Positions 25,280 through 40,523 of a DNA stretch of 64,000 nt are shown here, piece by piece. The position numbers were made by a program, and so were the translations under genes. The notes beneath the pieces are model-generated. The model had not been told where the DNA came from. It was given only the letters and a program-made list of their open reading frames with translations, and searched no databases. How positions within the stretch are numbered: the stretch's first letter is position 1; each line of letters opens with the position of its first letter. The DNA comes from Streptomyces sp. NBC_01723 (GTDB taxonomy: Bacteria; Actinomycetota; Actinomycetes; Streptomycetales; Streptomycetaceae): positions 2,096,001 to 2,160,000 of the forward strand of contig NZ_CP109171.1 in assembly GCF_036246005.1 (NCBI RefSeq), in the 5' to 3' direction.

Positions 25280-26554
25280 ATGTCCGCCATGTCCGCCCCG
25301 CCGTCTGTGCCCTCCGCGTCCTCCGCGTCCTCCAAACTGCACCGTGTCGTCGTCGCCCCCAGCGGCTTCAAGGAGTCGCTGTCCGCGCAGGCCGCCGCCG
25401 ACGCCATCGCGGCCGGTGTCCGCCGGGTGCTGCCGGCTGCCGAGATCGACCGGATCCCGCTGGTCGACGGCGGTGAGGGCACGGCCGTGGCGCTGGCCGC
25501 CGCGACCGGTGGGCGGCTGGTCGCGCTGGCCGCCACCGGCCCGGTCGGCGAGCCCGTCGGCACCCACTTCGCGCTGCTCGGCGGCCGGGACACGGCGGTG
25601 GTGGAGATGGCCGCGGTCGCGGGTCTGTCCCTGGTCCCCCGCGCCCTGCGCGACCCCGGCGCGACGACCACGTACGGCGTCGGCGAGCTGATCGGTGCCG
25701 CGCTCGACACCGGGGTGCGGCGGATCCTGGTCGGCTGCGGCGACTCCGGTACGTCGGACGGGGGCGCGGGGGCGCTCCAGGCGCTCGGGGCGCGGCTGCT
25801 GGACGCGGACGGCTTCGAACTGCCGCCCGGCGGGGGCGAGCTGGTCCGGCTGGCCCGGGTCGACCCGTCCGGCCTGGACACCCGCCTGAAGGACACCGAG
25901 CTGCTCGTCGCCTGCAATCCGTACAACGTGCTGTGCGGCGAGCGGGGCGTGGCCCGGGTGTTCGGCCCGCAGAAGGGGGCGACGCCCGCGCAGGTGGAGC
26001 AGTTGTCGGCCGGTCTGGAGAACTGGGCGCGCGTCCTCACCCGCGACCTCTCGGTCATCGGCACGGACCTGCGGGGCGGCCCCGGCACCGGTGCCTCCGG
26101 CGGACTCGGCGCCGGGCTGGCCGCCCTCGGCGCCCGGCTGCTGCCCCGTTTCGACGTGCTGCTCGACCACCTCGACCTGGACGCCCGCCTCGCCCGTGCC
26201 GACCTGGTGCTGACCGCCGAGGGCGCCCTGGACCACCAGACGCCGCGCGGCAAGGTACCGGCGGAGGTGGCCCGGCGCGCCAAGCTCCACGGCCGTCCGG
26301 TCCTCGCCCTGGCCGGCACGCTCGGCGAGGGCGCGCACGACGTGCCGGGGGTGGACGCCTGCCACGGGATCATGCCGGCCCCGATGGCGCTGGCGGACGC
26401 GCTGTCGCGGGCCGCCGAGCTGCTGACGGACGCCACGGAGCGGGCCCTGCGGATGGTTCTCCTCGGGTCGCGGCTGCCGGGCCGGCCGGCTCAGGCGGCG
26501 GAGCCCAGGGCGGCGGAGGTGTCGGGCACGCAGCGCCCGTCCTCGGTGCGGTAG
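25280..26554 (+). CDS. Glycerate kinase (type II, GckA/GlxK family)
   Basis: A 424-residue kinase that phosphorylates D-glycerate (2- or 3-position). Motifs: VVVAPSGFKESLSAQAAADA (about 25-44), IPLVDGGEGTAVALA (about 61-75), MAAVAGLSLVPRALRDP and the nucleotide region TAEGALDHQTPRGKVPAEVA. I chose the ATG at 25280, 7 nt after AAGGAG; an ATG at 25265 overlaps the permease stop. The last 64 bp overlap the convergent aminotransferase gene. With the permease it probably forms an uptake-and-activation pair under the upstream two-component system. Confidence 0.92.
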   Translation: MSAMSAPPSVPSASSASSKLHRVVVAPSGFKESLSAQAAADAIAAGVRRVLPAAEIDRIPLVDGGEGTAVALAAATGGRLVALAATGPVGEPVGTHFALLGGRDTAVVEMAAVAGLSLVPRALRDPGATTTYGVGELIGAALDTGVRRILVGCGDSGTSDGGAGALQALGARLLDADGFELPPGGGELVRLARVDPSGLDTRLKDTELLVACNPYNVLCGERGVARVFGPQKGATPAQVEQLSAGLENWARVLTRDLSVIGTDLRGGPGTGASGGLGAGLAALGARLLPRFDVLLDHLDLDARLARADLVLTAEGALDHQTPRGKVPAEVARRAKLHGRPVLALAGTLGEGAHDVPGVDACHGIMPAPMALADALSRAAELLTDATERALRMVLLGSRLPGRPAQAAEPRAAEVSGTQRPSSVR

Positions 26555-27891
26555 CTCCACCGGGCGCCGTCGCTGACCAGCTCCTTGACGGCGTGCACGA
26601 ACCGCTCGACGTGCTCGTCCGGGGTGCCGGCGCCGAAGCTCACGCGGATGGCGTTGAGGGACTTCTCCCCCGGCGCCGCCTCGGGGGCGCCGCACTCGCC
26701 CTGCGCCCCGGGCTCGCCGCCGAGCAGGGTGCGCACCAGCGGGTGGGCGCAGAACAGGCCGTCGCGCACCCCGATGCCGTACTCGGCGGAGAGCGCGGCC
26801 GCGAAGTGGGAGCTGTTCCAGCCGTCGACGACGAAGGAGAGCACGCCCACGCGGGGCGCGTCGTCGCCGAAGAGGGAGAGGATCCGCACCTCGGGCACCT
26901 CGGCGAGACCCTCCCGCACCTTGGCGATCAGGTACTCCTCGCGGGCGACGAGCGAGTCGAACCCGGCCTCGGTGAGCGCCTTGCAGGCGGAGGCGATCGA
27001 GTAGGCGCCGATGACGTTGGGCGAACCGGCCTCGTGCCGGGCGGCGCTCTCGTGCCAGCGCACGTCCACACCGCCGTCGGCGCGCCGGGTGACGCTGCGG
27101 CTGGCACCGCCGCCGGCGAGGTACGGCTCGGCCTCGCGCAGCCAGTCGGCCCGGCCGGCCAGCACGCCGGAGCCGAACGGGGCGTACAGCTTGTGGCCGG
27201 AGAAGGCGACCCAGTCGACGTCGAGGTCGCGCACGCTCACCGGGTGGTGCGGGGCGAGCTGGGCGGCGTCCAGCACGATCCGGGCGCCGTGCGCGTGCGC
27301 GGCGGCGGCCAGTTCACGCACCGGCCACAGCTCGCCGGTGACGTTGGAGGCGCCGGTGACGCAGACCAGGGCGGGCCCGTACGGCTCGCGGGCGGCGAGG
27401 GCGCGCTCCAGGGTCTCGACGGCCTCGGCGTGGGTGCGGGGGGCGTCGAGGTAGGTCACGTCCGCGTCCCTCCCCCTACGCCCTGCGGCGTGGGGGGACC
27501 CCCAGGGCAGCAGCGAGGCGTGGTGCTCGGTCTCGAAGACGAAGACCCGGCAGCCGGCGGGCAGCGCGCCGGCGAGCAGGTTGAGGGAGTCGGTGGTGGA
27601 CCGGGTGAACACGACCTGGTCGTCCTGCCGGCAGCCGAGGAACTCGGCGACGGTGTCGCGGGCGTTCTCGAACAGGTCGGTCGACAGCTGCGACAGGTAC
27701 CCGGCCCCGCGGTGCACGCTGCCGTAGTACGGGGCGTAGGCCGCCACGTCGTCCCAGACCCGCTGGAGAGCGGGGGCGCTGGCGGCGTAGTCGAGCGCGG
27801 CGTAGGTGACCTCGCCGCCGGTGACGAGCGGGACGGTGACGTCGCGGCCCAGAACGGGCAGCGGGGTGGTGACAGCAGTGGGTACGGACAT
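26491..27891 (-). CDS. Class V aminotransferase, cysteine desulfurase-like, SAM-riboswitch controlled
   Basis: A 466-residue PLP enzyme of the SufS/NifS group. FETEHHASLLPW (about 119-130) carries the cofactor-stacking His pair, VLDAAQLAPHHPV the Asp/Gln pair, and DWVAFSGHKLYAPFGSG the Schiff-base Lys (about 228-244). A cysteine in EPGAQGECGAPEA (about 413) lies in the position range of a mobile desulfurase loop, but I am not sure it is catalytic. GSPHAAGRRGRD (131-142) is an in-frame palindrome insertion. A SAM-IV-type riboswitch in the leader ties it to sulfur/methionine metabolism. Confidence 0.85.
   Translation of the reverse strand: MSVPTAVTTPLPVLGRDVTVPLVTGGEVTYAALDYAASAPALQRVWDDVAAYAPYYGSVHRGAGYLSQLSTDLFENARDTVAEFLGCRQDDQVVFTRSTTDSLNLLAGALPAGCRVFVFETEHHASLLPWGSPHAAGRRGRDADVTYLDAPRTHAEAVETLERALAAREPYGPALVCVTGASNVTGELWPVRELAAAAHAHGARIVLDAAQLAPHHPVSVRDLDVDWVAFSGHKLYAPFGSGVLAGRADWLREAEPYLAGGGASRSVTRRADGGVDVRWHESAARHEAGSPNVIGAYSIASACKALTEAGFDSLVAREEYLIAKVREGLAEVPEVRILSLFGDDAPRVGVLSFVVDGWNSSHFAAALSAEYGIGVRDGLFCAHPLVRTLLGGEPGAQGECGAPEAAPGEKSLNAIRVSFGAGTPDEHVERFVHAVKELVSDGARWSYRTEDGRCVPDTSAALGSAA
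27472..27497. repeat. Palindromic element inserted in frame in the aminotransferase gene
   Basis: CCCCCTACGCC-CTGC-GGCGTGGGGGG forms an 11-bp stem with one T-G pair. It codes, on the minus strand, for GSPHAAGRRGRD between the substrate-site loop and the next strand. Read on that strand, its outline is GGGGGT-CCCCC-arm-GGGGGA, as at 23059 and 53735. Confidence 0.65.
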
Positions 27892-27987
27892 GGCGGACTC
27901 CCGTGAGGACCAGCGCGAGGCAGAGCGCTGGGAAAGAGAAGAAGAGGGTGTGCGGAGGCGGGGCTCTGCGGCCCTATCGCATTCGCT

Positions 27988-28058
27988 GGTTCACGGGAGA
28001 CTCCCTCGGACGACCCAGGACCCCTGGTTTCGCGAGGGGTCCGCGCTTGCCGTGAACC
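27988..28058 (-). terminator. Expression platform of the SAM riboswitch (nested hairpins)
   Basis: GGACCCCT/AGGGGTCC (28018-28042, 8-bp stem) is enclosed by GGTTCACGG/CCGTGAACC (28050-28058 with 27988-27996, 9-bp perfect stem). The set lies just 3' of the aptamer and about 100 nt before the coding start, where a terminator or anti-terminator is expected. Confidence 0.6.
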
Positions 28059-28070
28059 TTGCTGTCCACG

Positions 28071-28154
28071 ACCTGGTCTTCACCCGGGGCACCCCGCCAC
28101 GGACGGAGGGTTGCCGGACAGTCGGCCGGGGCCTCATGACTGTCACTCATGACC
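28071..28154 (-). ncRNA. SAM-IV-type riboswitch aptamer
   Basis: On the minus strand the element begins GGTCATGAGTGACAGTCATG and closes with GGGTGAAGACC, giving the P1 pair GGTC/GACC. Between them are CCGGCAACCCTCC, holding the SAM-binding GGCAACC core, and GCGGGGTGCCCCGGG, a perfect small stem with the GGTGC element. This order matches the actinobacterial SAM-IV class (Rfam RF00634) as I know it. It lies in the 341-bp gap upstream of the cysteine desulfurase-like gene, with a two-hairpin expression platform after it. Confidence 0.85.
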
Positions 28155-28232
28155 TGTCGAAAAACTTATGGGAAGTGATCGGCGTCCCGCAACCCGAGTC
28201 CGGATCGCGGGACGCACGTCACACGGTGGGGC

Positions 28233-29297
28233 CTACGCGTTGCTGGCGGCCACCCAGCGGTCCAGGGCACGCTTGGCGGCGCCCGAGTCGATCGCCTCGG
28301 CCGCCCGGTCCATGCCGCCCCGGATGCGCTCCGGCAGGGGTCCCTCGCCGCCCTCCAGAGCGACCAGGGCGGCCGCCGAGTTCAGCAGCACGGCGTCCCG
28401 CACGGGGCCCGTCTCGCCGTTCAGCAGGCGCCTGGCGACGTCGGCGTTGTAGGAGGCGTCGGCGCCGCGCAGGGCCTCGACCGGCACCAGTTCGAGGCCG
28501 ACGTCGCGCGGGTCGAAGGTCTCCTCGGTCACCCGGCCGTCGCGCACGACCCAGACCCGGGAGGTGGCGGTCGTGGTCAGCTCGTCGAGGCCGTCGTCGC
28601 CCCGGAAGACCAGGGACGAGTGGCCGCGCTCGGCGAAGACACCGGCGATGATCGGCGCCATCCGGGCGTGGGCGACGCCGATCGCCTGGGCCTTGACCTT
28701 CGCGGGGTTGGTCAGCGGGCCGAGGAAGTTGAACACCGTGCGGATGCCGAGCTGGCCGCGCGCCGAGGCCACGTGGCGCAGCGCCGGGTGGAACTTCACG
28801 GCGAAGCAGAAGGTGATGCCGGCCTCGTCGGCGACCTCGGCGACCCGCTGCGGAGTCAGCTCCAGGTTGACGCCCAGCTTCTCCAGTACGTCGGAGGCGC
28901 CGGACGCGGAGGAGGCGGCGCGGTTGCCGTGCTTGACGACCTTCGCGCCGGTGCCGGCCACGACGATCGCCGACATGGTGGAGATGTTGACCGTCTTCGC
29001 GCCGTCGCCCCCGGTCCCGACGATGTCGACGGTCTCGCCCGGCACCTCGATGACGTTGGCGTGCGCGTACATGGTGCGGACCAGACCGGAGATCTCCTCC
29101 ACGGTCTCGCCCTTGAACCGGAGGCCCACCGCGAGGCCGGCGATCTGCGCGTCGGTCGCCTCGCCGCGCATGATCACGTCCAGCGCCCACGCGGTGTCGT
29201 CCTGGGACAGGTCGTGGCCGTCCAGCAGCCGGTTCAGCAGGGCGGGCCAGGAGCGGCCGCCCGCGGTGTCGCCTCCAGCGGGGGTCACAGCGCTCAT
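28233..29297 (-). CDS. trpD: Anthranilate phosphoribosyltransferase
   Basis: A 354-residue enzyme of tryptophan synthesis, joining anthranilate and PRPP. The PRPP/metal site is [20 protein letters not shown] (about 88-107), followed by [20 protein letters not shown] (about 119-138) and later [12 protein letters not shown] and [14 protein letters not shown]. Length and all binding motifs are normal. It is a stand-alone trpD, away from other trp genes, between the respiratory cluster and the SAM-riboswitch gene, and is probably monocistronic. Confidence 0.97.
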
Positions 29298-39140: not shown

Positions 39141-40523
39141 GTGGCCTACTTCGACGCTGCTTCCGCTGCACCCCTTCATTCCGTTGCCCAGCAGGCGCTG
39201 CTGGCCTCTCTTGACGAGGGGTGGGCCGATCCCGCGCGGCTCTACAGGGAGGGGCGCCGGGCGCGGCTGCTGCTCGACGCCGCCCGGGAGGCCGCCGCCG
39301 AGGCGGTGGGGTGCCGGGCCGACGAGCTGGTGTTCACCCCTTCGGGGACGCGGGCGGTGCATTCAGGGGTGGCGGGTGCGCTGGCCGGGCGGCGGCGCGT
39401 CGGACGCCACCTGATCGTGTCGGCCGTCGAACACTCCTCCGTACTCCACGCGGCCGAGGAGCTGGAGCGTGACGGCGGGACCGTCACCCAGGTCCCCGTG
39501 GACCGCGCCGGCGCGGTGGACGCGGGGGCCTTCGCCGCGGCCCTCGGTGACGGCACCGCGCTGGCCTGCCTCCAGTCGGCCAACCACGAGGTCGGCACCG
39601 AGCAGCCGGTGGCGCGGGTGGCGGAGGCCTGCCGGGCGGCGGGCGTGCCCCTGCTGGTGGACGCGGCCCAGTCGCTGGGCTGGGGGAAGGTGCAGGGCGA
39701 CTGGTCGCTGCTCACGGCCAGCGCGCACAAGTGGGGCGGGCCCTCGGGGGTCGGGCTGCTGGCCGTACGCAAGGGGGTGCGGTTCGCGCCGCAAGGGGCG
39801 GCGGACGAGAGGGAGTCGGGACGGGCGCCCGGGTTCGAGAACCTCCCGGCGATCGTGGCCGCGGCGGCGTCGCTGCGGGCGGTGCGGGCCGAGGCCGCGC
39901 AGGAGGCGGCCCGGCTGCGGGAGCTGACGGAGCGGATCCGGGCGCGGGTGCCCGGCCTGGTGCCGGACGTCGAGGTGGTCGGCGACGCGGTGCGGCGGCT
40001 GCCCGGGATCGTCACCTTCTCGTGTCTCTATGTCGACGGGGAGACTCTGCTGCACGAGCTGGACCGGGCCGGCTTCTCCGTCTCGTCCGGGTCGTCCTGC
40101 ACCAGCAGCACGCTGACGCCGAGCCACGTCCTCAAGGCGATGGGCGTGCTGACCGAGGGCAACGTCCGGGTGTCGCTGCCCCCGGGGACGCCGGCCGAGG
40201 ACGTGGAACGGTTCCTCGAGGTGCTGCCGGGCGCGGTGGCCGCGGTGCGGGAGAGGCTGGGCGCGCCGGCGGCCGCGGAGTCCGCCCCGGAGACCGGGGC
40301 GGACCTCGTCGTGGACGCCATCGGCCGCCGCTGCCCGATCCCGGTCATCGAACTGGCCAAGGTCATCGGCGACGTCCCCGTCGGCGGAACGGTCCGAGTG
40401 CTGTCCGACGACGAGGCCGCCCGCCTGGACATTCCGGCATGGTGCGAGATGCGGGGCCAGGAGTACGTGGGCGAGGAGCGGGCGGACCGGGGGACGGCTT
40501 ACTTGGTACGCCGGATCGGCTGA
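39141..40523 (+). CDS. Cysteine desulfurase-TusA fusion protein
   Basis: A 460-residue fusion. Residues 1-375 are an IscS/NifS-type cysteine desulfurase: SAVEHSSVLHAAEEL (about 94), LLVDAAQSLGWGKV (about 173), SAHKWGGPSGVGLLA (PLP Lys about 195) and the catalytic cysteine in SSGSSCTSSTLTPSH (about 320). Residues 390-460 are a complete TusA/SirA sulfur-carrier domain: VVDAIGRRCPIPVIELAKVI with the CPxP cysteine. This couples sulfane-sulfur release directly to its acceptor, for Fe-S clusters, tRNA thiolation or other thio-cofactors. Leaderless GTG start. Confidence 0.93.
   Translation: MAYFDAASAAPLHSVAQQALLASLDEGWADPARLYREGRRARLLLDAAREAAAEAVGCRADELVFTPSGTRAVHSGVAGALAGRRRVGRHLIVSAVEHSSVLHAAEELERDGGTVTQVPVDRAGAVDAGAFAAALGDGTALACLQSANHEVGTEQPVARVAEACRAAGVPLLVDAAQSLGWGKVQGDWSLLTASAHKWGGPSGVGLLAVRKGVRFAPQGAADERESGRAPGFENLPAIVAAAASLRAVRAEAAQEAARLRELTERIRARVPGLVPDVEVVGDAVRRLPGIVTFSCLYVDGETLLHELDRAGFSVSSGSSCTSSTLTPSHVLKAMGVLTEGNVRVSLPPGTPAEDVERFLEVLPGAVAAVRERLGAPAAAESAPETGADLVVDAIGRRCPIPVIELAKVIGDVPVGGTVRVLSDDEAARLDIPAWCEMRGQEYVGEERADRGTAYLVRRIG

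Follow-up and report, generated by a model that had tools for sequence, protein, structure and literature searches.

In the 64,000-nucleotide stretch of Streptomyces sp. NBC_01723 analyzed in this work (the window), a SAM-sensing leader stands before a cysteine desulfurase-like gene, and this locus raises the question of how the SAM signal reaches the gene and which pathway the enzyme serves. In a sequence-only reading of the window, the riboswitch had been pictured as acting directly on the gene. That picture missed two elements: an upstream open reading frame (uORF) of six codons, conserved at 138 of the 138 loci examined in the genus, and the complementarity of the gene Shine-Dalgarno sequence (SD) to the region of the uORF start. 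Our results indicate that this uORF probably relays the SAM signal to the enzyme gene.

The SAM-IV aptamer and its desulfurase gene

The riboswitch is a real SAM-IV element. The Rfam model RF00634 matched at full length (model positions 1-116) at 28038-28154 of the minus strand, scoring 112.6 bits (gathering score 38, E-value 5.4e-20), and it was the sole match when the 64 kb were scanned with Rfam at gathering thresholds. The covariance-model check proposed with the sequence-only reading thus gave a significant, full-length match, and the call of a SAM-IV-type riboswitch on the minus strand stands, as do the P1 helix (GGTC at 28154-28151 and GACC at 28078-28075) and the GGCAACC core, which are present as described there; P1, core and 3' tail all agree with the model. 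The span assigned at that time, 28071-28154, was too short: the final helix and the 3' tail lie outside it, and the true reach is to 28038. Directly 5' of the aptamer lies a candidate promoter, picked by eye, made of the promoter-like motifs TTGCGG (28192-28187) and TAAGTT (28168-28163; 28163-28192 altogether, minus strand). An open reading frame 5' of the riboswitch (28233-29297, minus strand) presumably encodes the anthranilate phosphoribosyltransferase TrpD, judging by its sequence. The whole 8.85 Mb genome holds one SAM-IV copy, and 118 of the 121 genus genomes carry at least one match. In one of these (G040, C1:8784920-8785304, locus L091), two matches on opposite strands lie about 130 bases apart, perhaps as a divergent pair.

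The gene behind the aptamer (26491-27891, minus strand) encodes a protein of 466 residues which had been called a class V aminotransferase/desulfurase, and profile and structure matches place it among the class V PLP enzymes, in the SufS group. The alignment with SufS-type structures spans about residues 6-388 of the 466, and in it Lys234 and Cys381 fall on the sites of the PLP lysine and of the catalytic cysteine in those structures; we take the two residues to have these roles here. Whereas the fold alignment and both residues are shared with SufS desulfurases, the protein reached 253.3 bits with TIGR01979 (SufS), below its cut-off of 475.1 bits, and sits behind a SAM riboswitch. A second desulfurase-like gene, on the plus strand at 39141-40523, does join a class V domain to a TusA domain (PF00266 and PF01206), as had been read from its translation.

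The association of SAM-IV with such a gene has been reported before: in S. lividans a SAM-IV element precedes SLIV_26975, listed as 'Cysteine desulfurase (Thiamine metabolism)' (PMC8079986, Table 3), and in S. clavuligerus the class V PLP enzyme CRV15_21540 has a SAM-IV leader, according to the available part of PMC8269248. The riboswitch-gene pairing is therefore not new. It extends beyond the genus, as SAM-IV stands shortly 5' of desulfurase relatives (46-49% identical) at five loci outside it. We scanned nine proteins behind other SAM-IV copies. Outside the genus, SAM-IV precedes MetY (O-acetylhomoserine sulfhydrylase) at L161, L162, L169 and L178 and MetX (homoserine O-acetyltransferase) at L184, and in genome G313 a desulfurase (L159), MetY (L178) and MetX (L184) each lie behind such an element. 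Further copies within the genus precede an amino-acid ABC transporter (L072) and a peptide/nickel-type binding protein (L083), and the scan gave nothing for the proteins at L082 and L085. In addition, rhodanese-like genes (L177, L179) and MetX-like genes (L172, L176) were recognized by eye behind SAM-IV.

This company bears on the enzyme's role, which had been proposed to lie in methionine or cysteine recycling rather than in bulk Fe-S assembly. The proposal gains from the reach of the SAM-IV/desulfurase link beyond the genus and from the methionine genes, and the genes found behind other SAM-IV copies hint at the role itself: the likeliest would be the delivery of sulfur from cysteine for homocysteine synthesis at low SAM, and the company fits such a supply rather than bulk Fe-S assembly. 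If true, a further type of desulfurase would be tied to methionine supply. In its full-length match, its conserved parts and the methionine genes found behind it elsewhere, the aptamer is like the rest of RF00634; the difference, in the genus of the window, is the six-codon uORF that comes after it.

A conserved six-codon reading frame

Side-by-side reading of 31 leaders revealed a near-identical stretch separating the aptamer from the gene. In the window it reads GTG AAC CAG CGA ATG CGA TAG (27974-27994, minus strand; peptide MNQRMR), and its SD, GAGGGAG (28001-28007, minus strand), lies 6 nt 5' of the start. The comparison began with 148 loci that have a desulfurase match (E up to 1e-20), from which four duplicates and L159, where the script found no core motif, were excluded; the 143 distinct loci with an aptamer core comprise 138 in the genus and 5 outside. 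The pattern [G/A]TG-NNN-NNN-CGA-ATG-NNN-TAG was present at 138 of the 138 genus loci examined, each with a purine SD-like motif 6-9 nt 5' of the start, and at none of the five extra-genus loci with SAM-IV before desulfurase relatives (0/5). Among the genus loci the start codon is GTG in 132 and ATG in 6, the stop is TAG in all 138, the peptide is MSKRMR in 102 and codon 6 encodes arginine in 130. Between uORF and gene lie 61-319 nt, without a constant reading frame.

These figures bear on the possibility that an ordinary SAM-IV acts directly on the desulfurase gene, as the earlier reading had it, and that the uORF has no role. The extra-genus aptamers do stand before relatives of the gene without a uORF (0/5), so that the association of aptamer and gene can do without one. 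However, the presence of the uORF at every genus locus examined and a leader between uORF and gene that is both long and variable are hard to reconcile with this explanation, which we consider very improbable.

The uORF belongs to this position. Of 16 genomes of the genus, 15 contain the exact 21-mer pattern a single time each, the exception being G010 with a variant last codon (L064), and the search with this exact pattern found no second copy elsewhere in these genomes and none in 10 other genomes of the order (0/10). A scan of named genomes with the 3' part of the pattern returned at least 119 stretches, 103 of which have a SAM-IV core just upstream (100 from Streptomycetaceae, 2 from unplaced Actinobacteria records and 1 from a record labelled Microtetraspora). 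Among the matches listed are also two more Streptomyces stretches that end early, and 14 in other organisms where no core was found, by estimate a number no higher than expected by chance. A literature search limited to open-licence papers found no description of the uORF.

We further counted the least number of changes at each position on the tree of the desulfurase gene. The three positions of the start codon changed 3/0/0 times, all between G and A, and those of codon 6 changed 4/4/32 times, whereas codon 4, codon 5 and the stop each gave 0/0/0, and the blocks CGAATG and TAGG showed zero change across the 138 loci. At least 32 of 40 codon-6 changes at the third position have a chance of 1.8e-9, if sites are taken as equal and independent. 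As far as comparison goes, this pattern is a coding signature together with a further, unexplained constraint on the nucleotides. Translation of the uORF is favoured by the unconstrained third position of codon 6, the exchange of GTG and ATG and the kept SD spacing. A purely coding reading appears to be contradicted in part by codon 4, invariant even at its wobble base: CGA makes up 5 of 205 arginine codons in eight genes of the window, yet it is fixed here, which implies selection on something besides the amino acid.

The constraint at codon 4 would be expected if the 21 nt were not translated at all and formed a conserved RNA element, a site for a protein or for pairing, while the riboswitch acted structurally on the gene SD. 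The invariance of CGAATG and TAGG beyond what amino-acid selection alone would give, the rarity of the fixed CGA and an arginine at codon 6 that is not always kept speak for such an element. Against it, an untranslated element would have to explain why the start varies between GTG and ATG only, why the changes in codon 6 pile up at its third position (32, compared with 4 at each of the other two), and why the SD spacing stays within 6-9 nt, and we regard this possibility as quite improbable.

Complementary strands on both sides of the uORF

Between the aptamer and the uORF, a middle hairpin (28018-28042, minus strand) pairs GGACCCCT at 28042-28035 with AGGGGTCC at 28025-28018 and is conserved in relatives. 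In an alignment of 108 of the 138 genus loci, chosen by similarity, its strands (GGACCCC/GGGGUCC) are found in 105 of the 108 and the seven counted pairs form in 100%; C-G/U-A changes occur at one pair, with 17 cells changed on both sides. Two nested hairpins had earlier been placed at 27988-28058: the inner one is this hairpin and stands, and the outer one (GGTTCACGG at 28058-28050 with CCGTGAACC at 27996-27988) had to be rejected, as it reaches at least 8 bp in 4 of 138 loci and is 5 bp long in 121; its two strands are the last helix strand of the aptamer and the uORF start.

The 3' strand of the middle hairpin continues into CCUGGUC, the complement of GACCAGG, that is, of the P1 3' strand and three further bases (28072-28078, minus strand). 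We call this the anti-P1 strand; in the window it is CCTGGGTC at 28012-28019 (minus strand), with an extra G, and pairs at 6 of 7 positions without a bulge. The counts cover 137 of the 138 loci, L128 being left out because the searched P1 motif is absent there. CCTGGTC is present in 105 of the 137, and the best partner of GACCAGG within the last 45 nt 5' of the uORF matches 7/7 in 115, compared with 4.1% for all aptamer heptamers, 4.7% for scrambled ones and 36 of 137 for the next best aptamer offset. Furthermore, the 5' strand of the middle hairpin can pair with the uORF SD: 97 of 135 loci allow a helix of at least 5 bp, compared with 6.8% in the control. No covariation between CCCUCG in this strand and the uORF SD was found, as the mean stays the same when partners are exchanged between loci (5.60 against 5.51). 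The anti-P1 and the SD:anti-SD strands are conserved and not covarying; among the switch pairings, covariation is seen in the middle hairpin alone. Pairing of UCCU with the uORF SD is equally good when slid by -1, and UCCU is retained as a possible uORF anti-SD.

The consequences of the two alternatives were followed by forced folds of 133 of the 138 loci, a test that is biased because the pairs themselves are imposed. Imposing anti-P1 instead of P1 leaves the uORF SD more open in 124 of the 133 loci (mean openness 0.37 against 0.21), by more than 0.2 in just 40 of them, and the start codon shows the opposite trend (0.54 open under P1, 0.22 under anti-P1). For the leader in the window, the free fold is more stable than either forced fold, by 7.5 and 11.9 kcal/mol, and it keeps the uORF SD mostly paired (0.14 open). 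Three loci (L014, L063 and L095) have no middle hairpin, and their uORF SD comes almost directly after the aptamer, which perhaps blocks it by itself. Together, these strands point towards a switch that would be off with SAM and on without it.

On the other side, the strand CTCCCGTGA (CUCCCGUGA; 27991-27999, minus strand), which overlaps the uORF start codon, is the complement of TCACGGGAG (UCACGGGAG; 27898-27906, minus strand), which includes the desulfurase SD. The 9 bp between 27999-27991 and 27906-27898 are part of the minimum free energy fold of 27885-28010, the leader without the aptamer (z of -2.12; 7 of 200 shuffles as stable), with a predicted pairing probability of 0.999 for the helix (the same leader, L001). 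A helix of at least 9 bp was found in 51 of the 72 loci (out of 138) whose gene start is aligned, against 1.1% in the control. When the search was left open, runs of at least 8, a length that scrambled strands reach in 10.3%, turned up at 80 of 138 loci; 79 of these 80 runs have ATG, GTG or TTG within the next 3-15 nt and 76 end within 40 nt 5' of the estimated gene start. When the gene SD was picked blind to pairing (137 of 138 loci), 85.4% of the cells pair. The predicted pairing between gene SD and uORF start strand exceeds 0.5 in 119 of 135 loci, a count from the 135 of 137 that were folded, without a shuffled control. Covariation in this helix is slight: when partners are exchanged between loci, 85.0% of the cells still pair (sd 0.23), compared with the observed 85.4%, and a tree test at one position found five independent pairs, of which on average 3.5 agreed in direction and 0.1 went the opposite way (median p 0.25). 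A run of at least 7 is present in 82 of the 137 loci, and on the tree this state switches no fewer than 14 times. Among the six loci with an ATG start, L158 alone has the matching U in its SD strand and the other five are mismatched. The frequent switches and these mismatches somewhat lower our confidence in the relay.

The signal might also pass through transcription only. According to this possibility, the uORF ribosome would shield a terminator, either Rho-dependent or a hairpin, beginning at the uORF stop, and the SD complementarity would be a by-product of pyrimidine-rich and purine-rich stretches. Several features of the leader are consistent with it. A small hairpin, GGGC...GCCC (27961-27974, minus strand), has the G of the stop codon as its first base, and helix counts in relatives show that the helix begins at the stop G in 116 of 138 loci, with a mean of 4.75 bp against 3.47 in shuffled sequences and a fold z below -1 in 69 of 138. 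It is followed by a C-rich, G-poor stretch (27907-27960, minus strand), possibly a Rho loading region, whose composition was measured over the relatives and not over the window alone: C exceeds G in 138 of 138 uORF-gene intervals (pooled, 44.8% C and 24.1% G) and is at least twice as frequent in 55. The variable distance without a fixed frame, the run below 7 in 55 of 137 loci and the weak covariation would likewise be expected. In the available part of PMC8269248, moreover, the leader with SAM-IV before the class V gene of S. clavuligerus is described as a premature transcription unit, with CRV15_21540 among the most extreme genes for the drop from premature transcript to gene, and that part gives no base-level position for the premature 3' end and mentions no Rho test. 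A precedent is the Mbox of M. tuberculosis (pe20), where a translational platform on the conserved uORF rv1805A is combined with Rho-dependent termination (PMC12810186, as far as available).

A role for transcription alone is nevertheless opposed by the position of the complementarity, since 76 of 138 loci have a run of at least 8 close to the gene start whereas scrambled strands place a run of 8 at an SD-like place (ATG or GTG at the same distance) in 2.0%, and by the drop to 30-59% of cells paired when the blindly picked SD is slid by 1-4 nt. Besides, the stop hairpin is short: a strong intrinsic terminator at the stop as the sole cause was rejected, as 123 of 138 helices have 4-5 bp, and the hairpin is too short for a convincing intrinsic terminator. 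We take the transcription-only relay seriously while judging it unlikely. An early end of transcription in the leader may occur alongside the translational relay.

A proposed relay and its relation to known systems

Comparison of the loci shows aptamer and uORF as well as the complementary strands and where they lie, and altogether these suggest a model in which SAM-IV gates translation of the six-codon uORF and the uORF gates the desulfurase gene; we put this model, taken as a whole, slightly above even. In the SAM-bound state, P1 and the 3' pseudoknot would form, the CCCUCG strand of the middle hairpin would hold the uORF SD and ribosomes would not enter the uORF. The start strand of the idle uORF (CUCCCGUGA) would then be free to pair with UCACGGGAG, including the desulfurase SD, and keep the gene off, while the untranslated C-rich leader may also permit an early end of transcription. 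At low SAM, CCUGG(G)UC would pair with GACCAGG, opening P1 and freeing the uORF SD; ribosomes on the uORF would block pairing of the start strand, so that the gene SD opens, and a ribosome on the UAG would cover the hairpin that starts there. The enzyme would then likely release sulfur from cysteine for the synthesis of homocysteine and methionine.

It is tempting to speculate that the leader holds two sensors in series, the SAM aptamer and the uORF itself, with the ribosome pausing on the fixed CGA-AUG-NNN-UAG, although we consider this rather unlikely. Pauses might arise at the rare CGA, at the lone internal Met codon if charged Met-tRNA is short or at a UAG that RF1 alone reads, and the length of the pause would determine for what time the start strand of the uORF and the stop hairpin stay open. 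UAG is read by RF1 alone, and methylation of RF1 costs SAM. If this were true, the leader would read SAM, methionine and perhaps the speed of termination jointly, and we know of no shorter conserved uORF gated by a riboswitch.

Relays of riboswitch and uORF are known from M. tuberculosis, and the combination of SAM-IV and uORF thus varies a known theme. Expression of ppe2 behind a B12 riboswitch needs translation of the small uORF uPPE2; the two frames overlap by AUGA, ppe2 has no SD, and the authors conclude that the effect was not due to Rho (PMC11260477, in its available part). Our leader is similar in having a riboswitch and a small uORF on which the gene would depend, and differs from that description in that uORF and gene are 61-319 nt apart and the gene SD is complementary to the uORF start. 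The Mbox, as far as the accessible text of PMC12810186 describes it, has Mg2+ as ligand, and its rv1805A has a paralogue elsewhere in the genome; here, in contrast, the ligand class is SAM, the frame has six codons and the exact pattern was found once per genome searched. Short ORFs before metabolic genes are also known from Streptomyces, where eight translated amino-acid leader peptides mostly contain several codons for the regulated amino acid (PMC8079986, Table 4). The six-codon uORF shares this arrangement without being one of the eight, for which the part of that paper at hand mentions no riboswitch. SAM-IV leaders have hitherto been listed as aptamer plus gene, and the tiny conserved frame lies just past the end of the Rfam model. 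If the relay holds, the riboswitch-uORF logic of M. tuberculosis (B12, Mg2+) would extend to SAM and to Streptomyces.

Some further SAM-IV copies are accompanied by small frames of their own. Near a contig end, the copy L073 is followed by a variant uORF, GTG CGA ATG CGA ATG CGG TAG (MRMRMR), whose SD lies just a few bases past the aptamer and whose downstream gene is beyond the contig. Other in-genus copies are followed by small ORFs of a type that we take to be the cysteine leader peptide (e.g. ...RRRHIDLQRITSCLC). A regular expression for cysteine leader peptides matched 8 of 20 loci (L082, L083, L084, L087, L090, L091, L180 and L181), where L180 repeats the place of L083 and the ORFs of L091 and L181 end in Tyr, and more ORFs of this type, missed by the expression, were seen by eye at L072 and L074-L079. 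At those further copies, a SAM aptamer would appear to stand in series with a cysteine-type leader.
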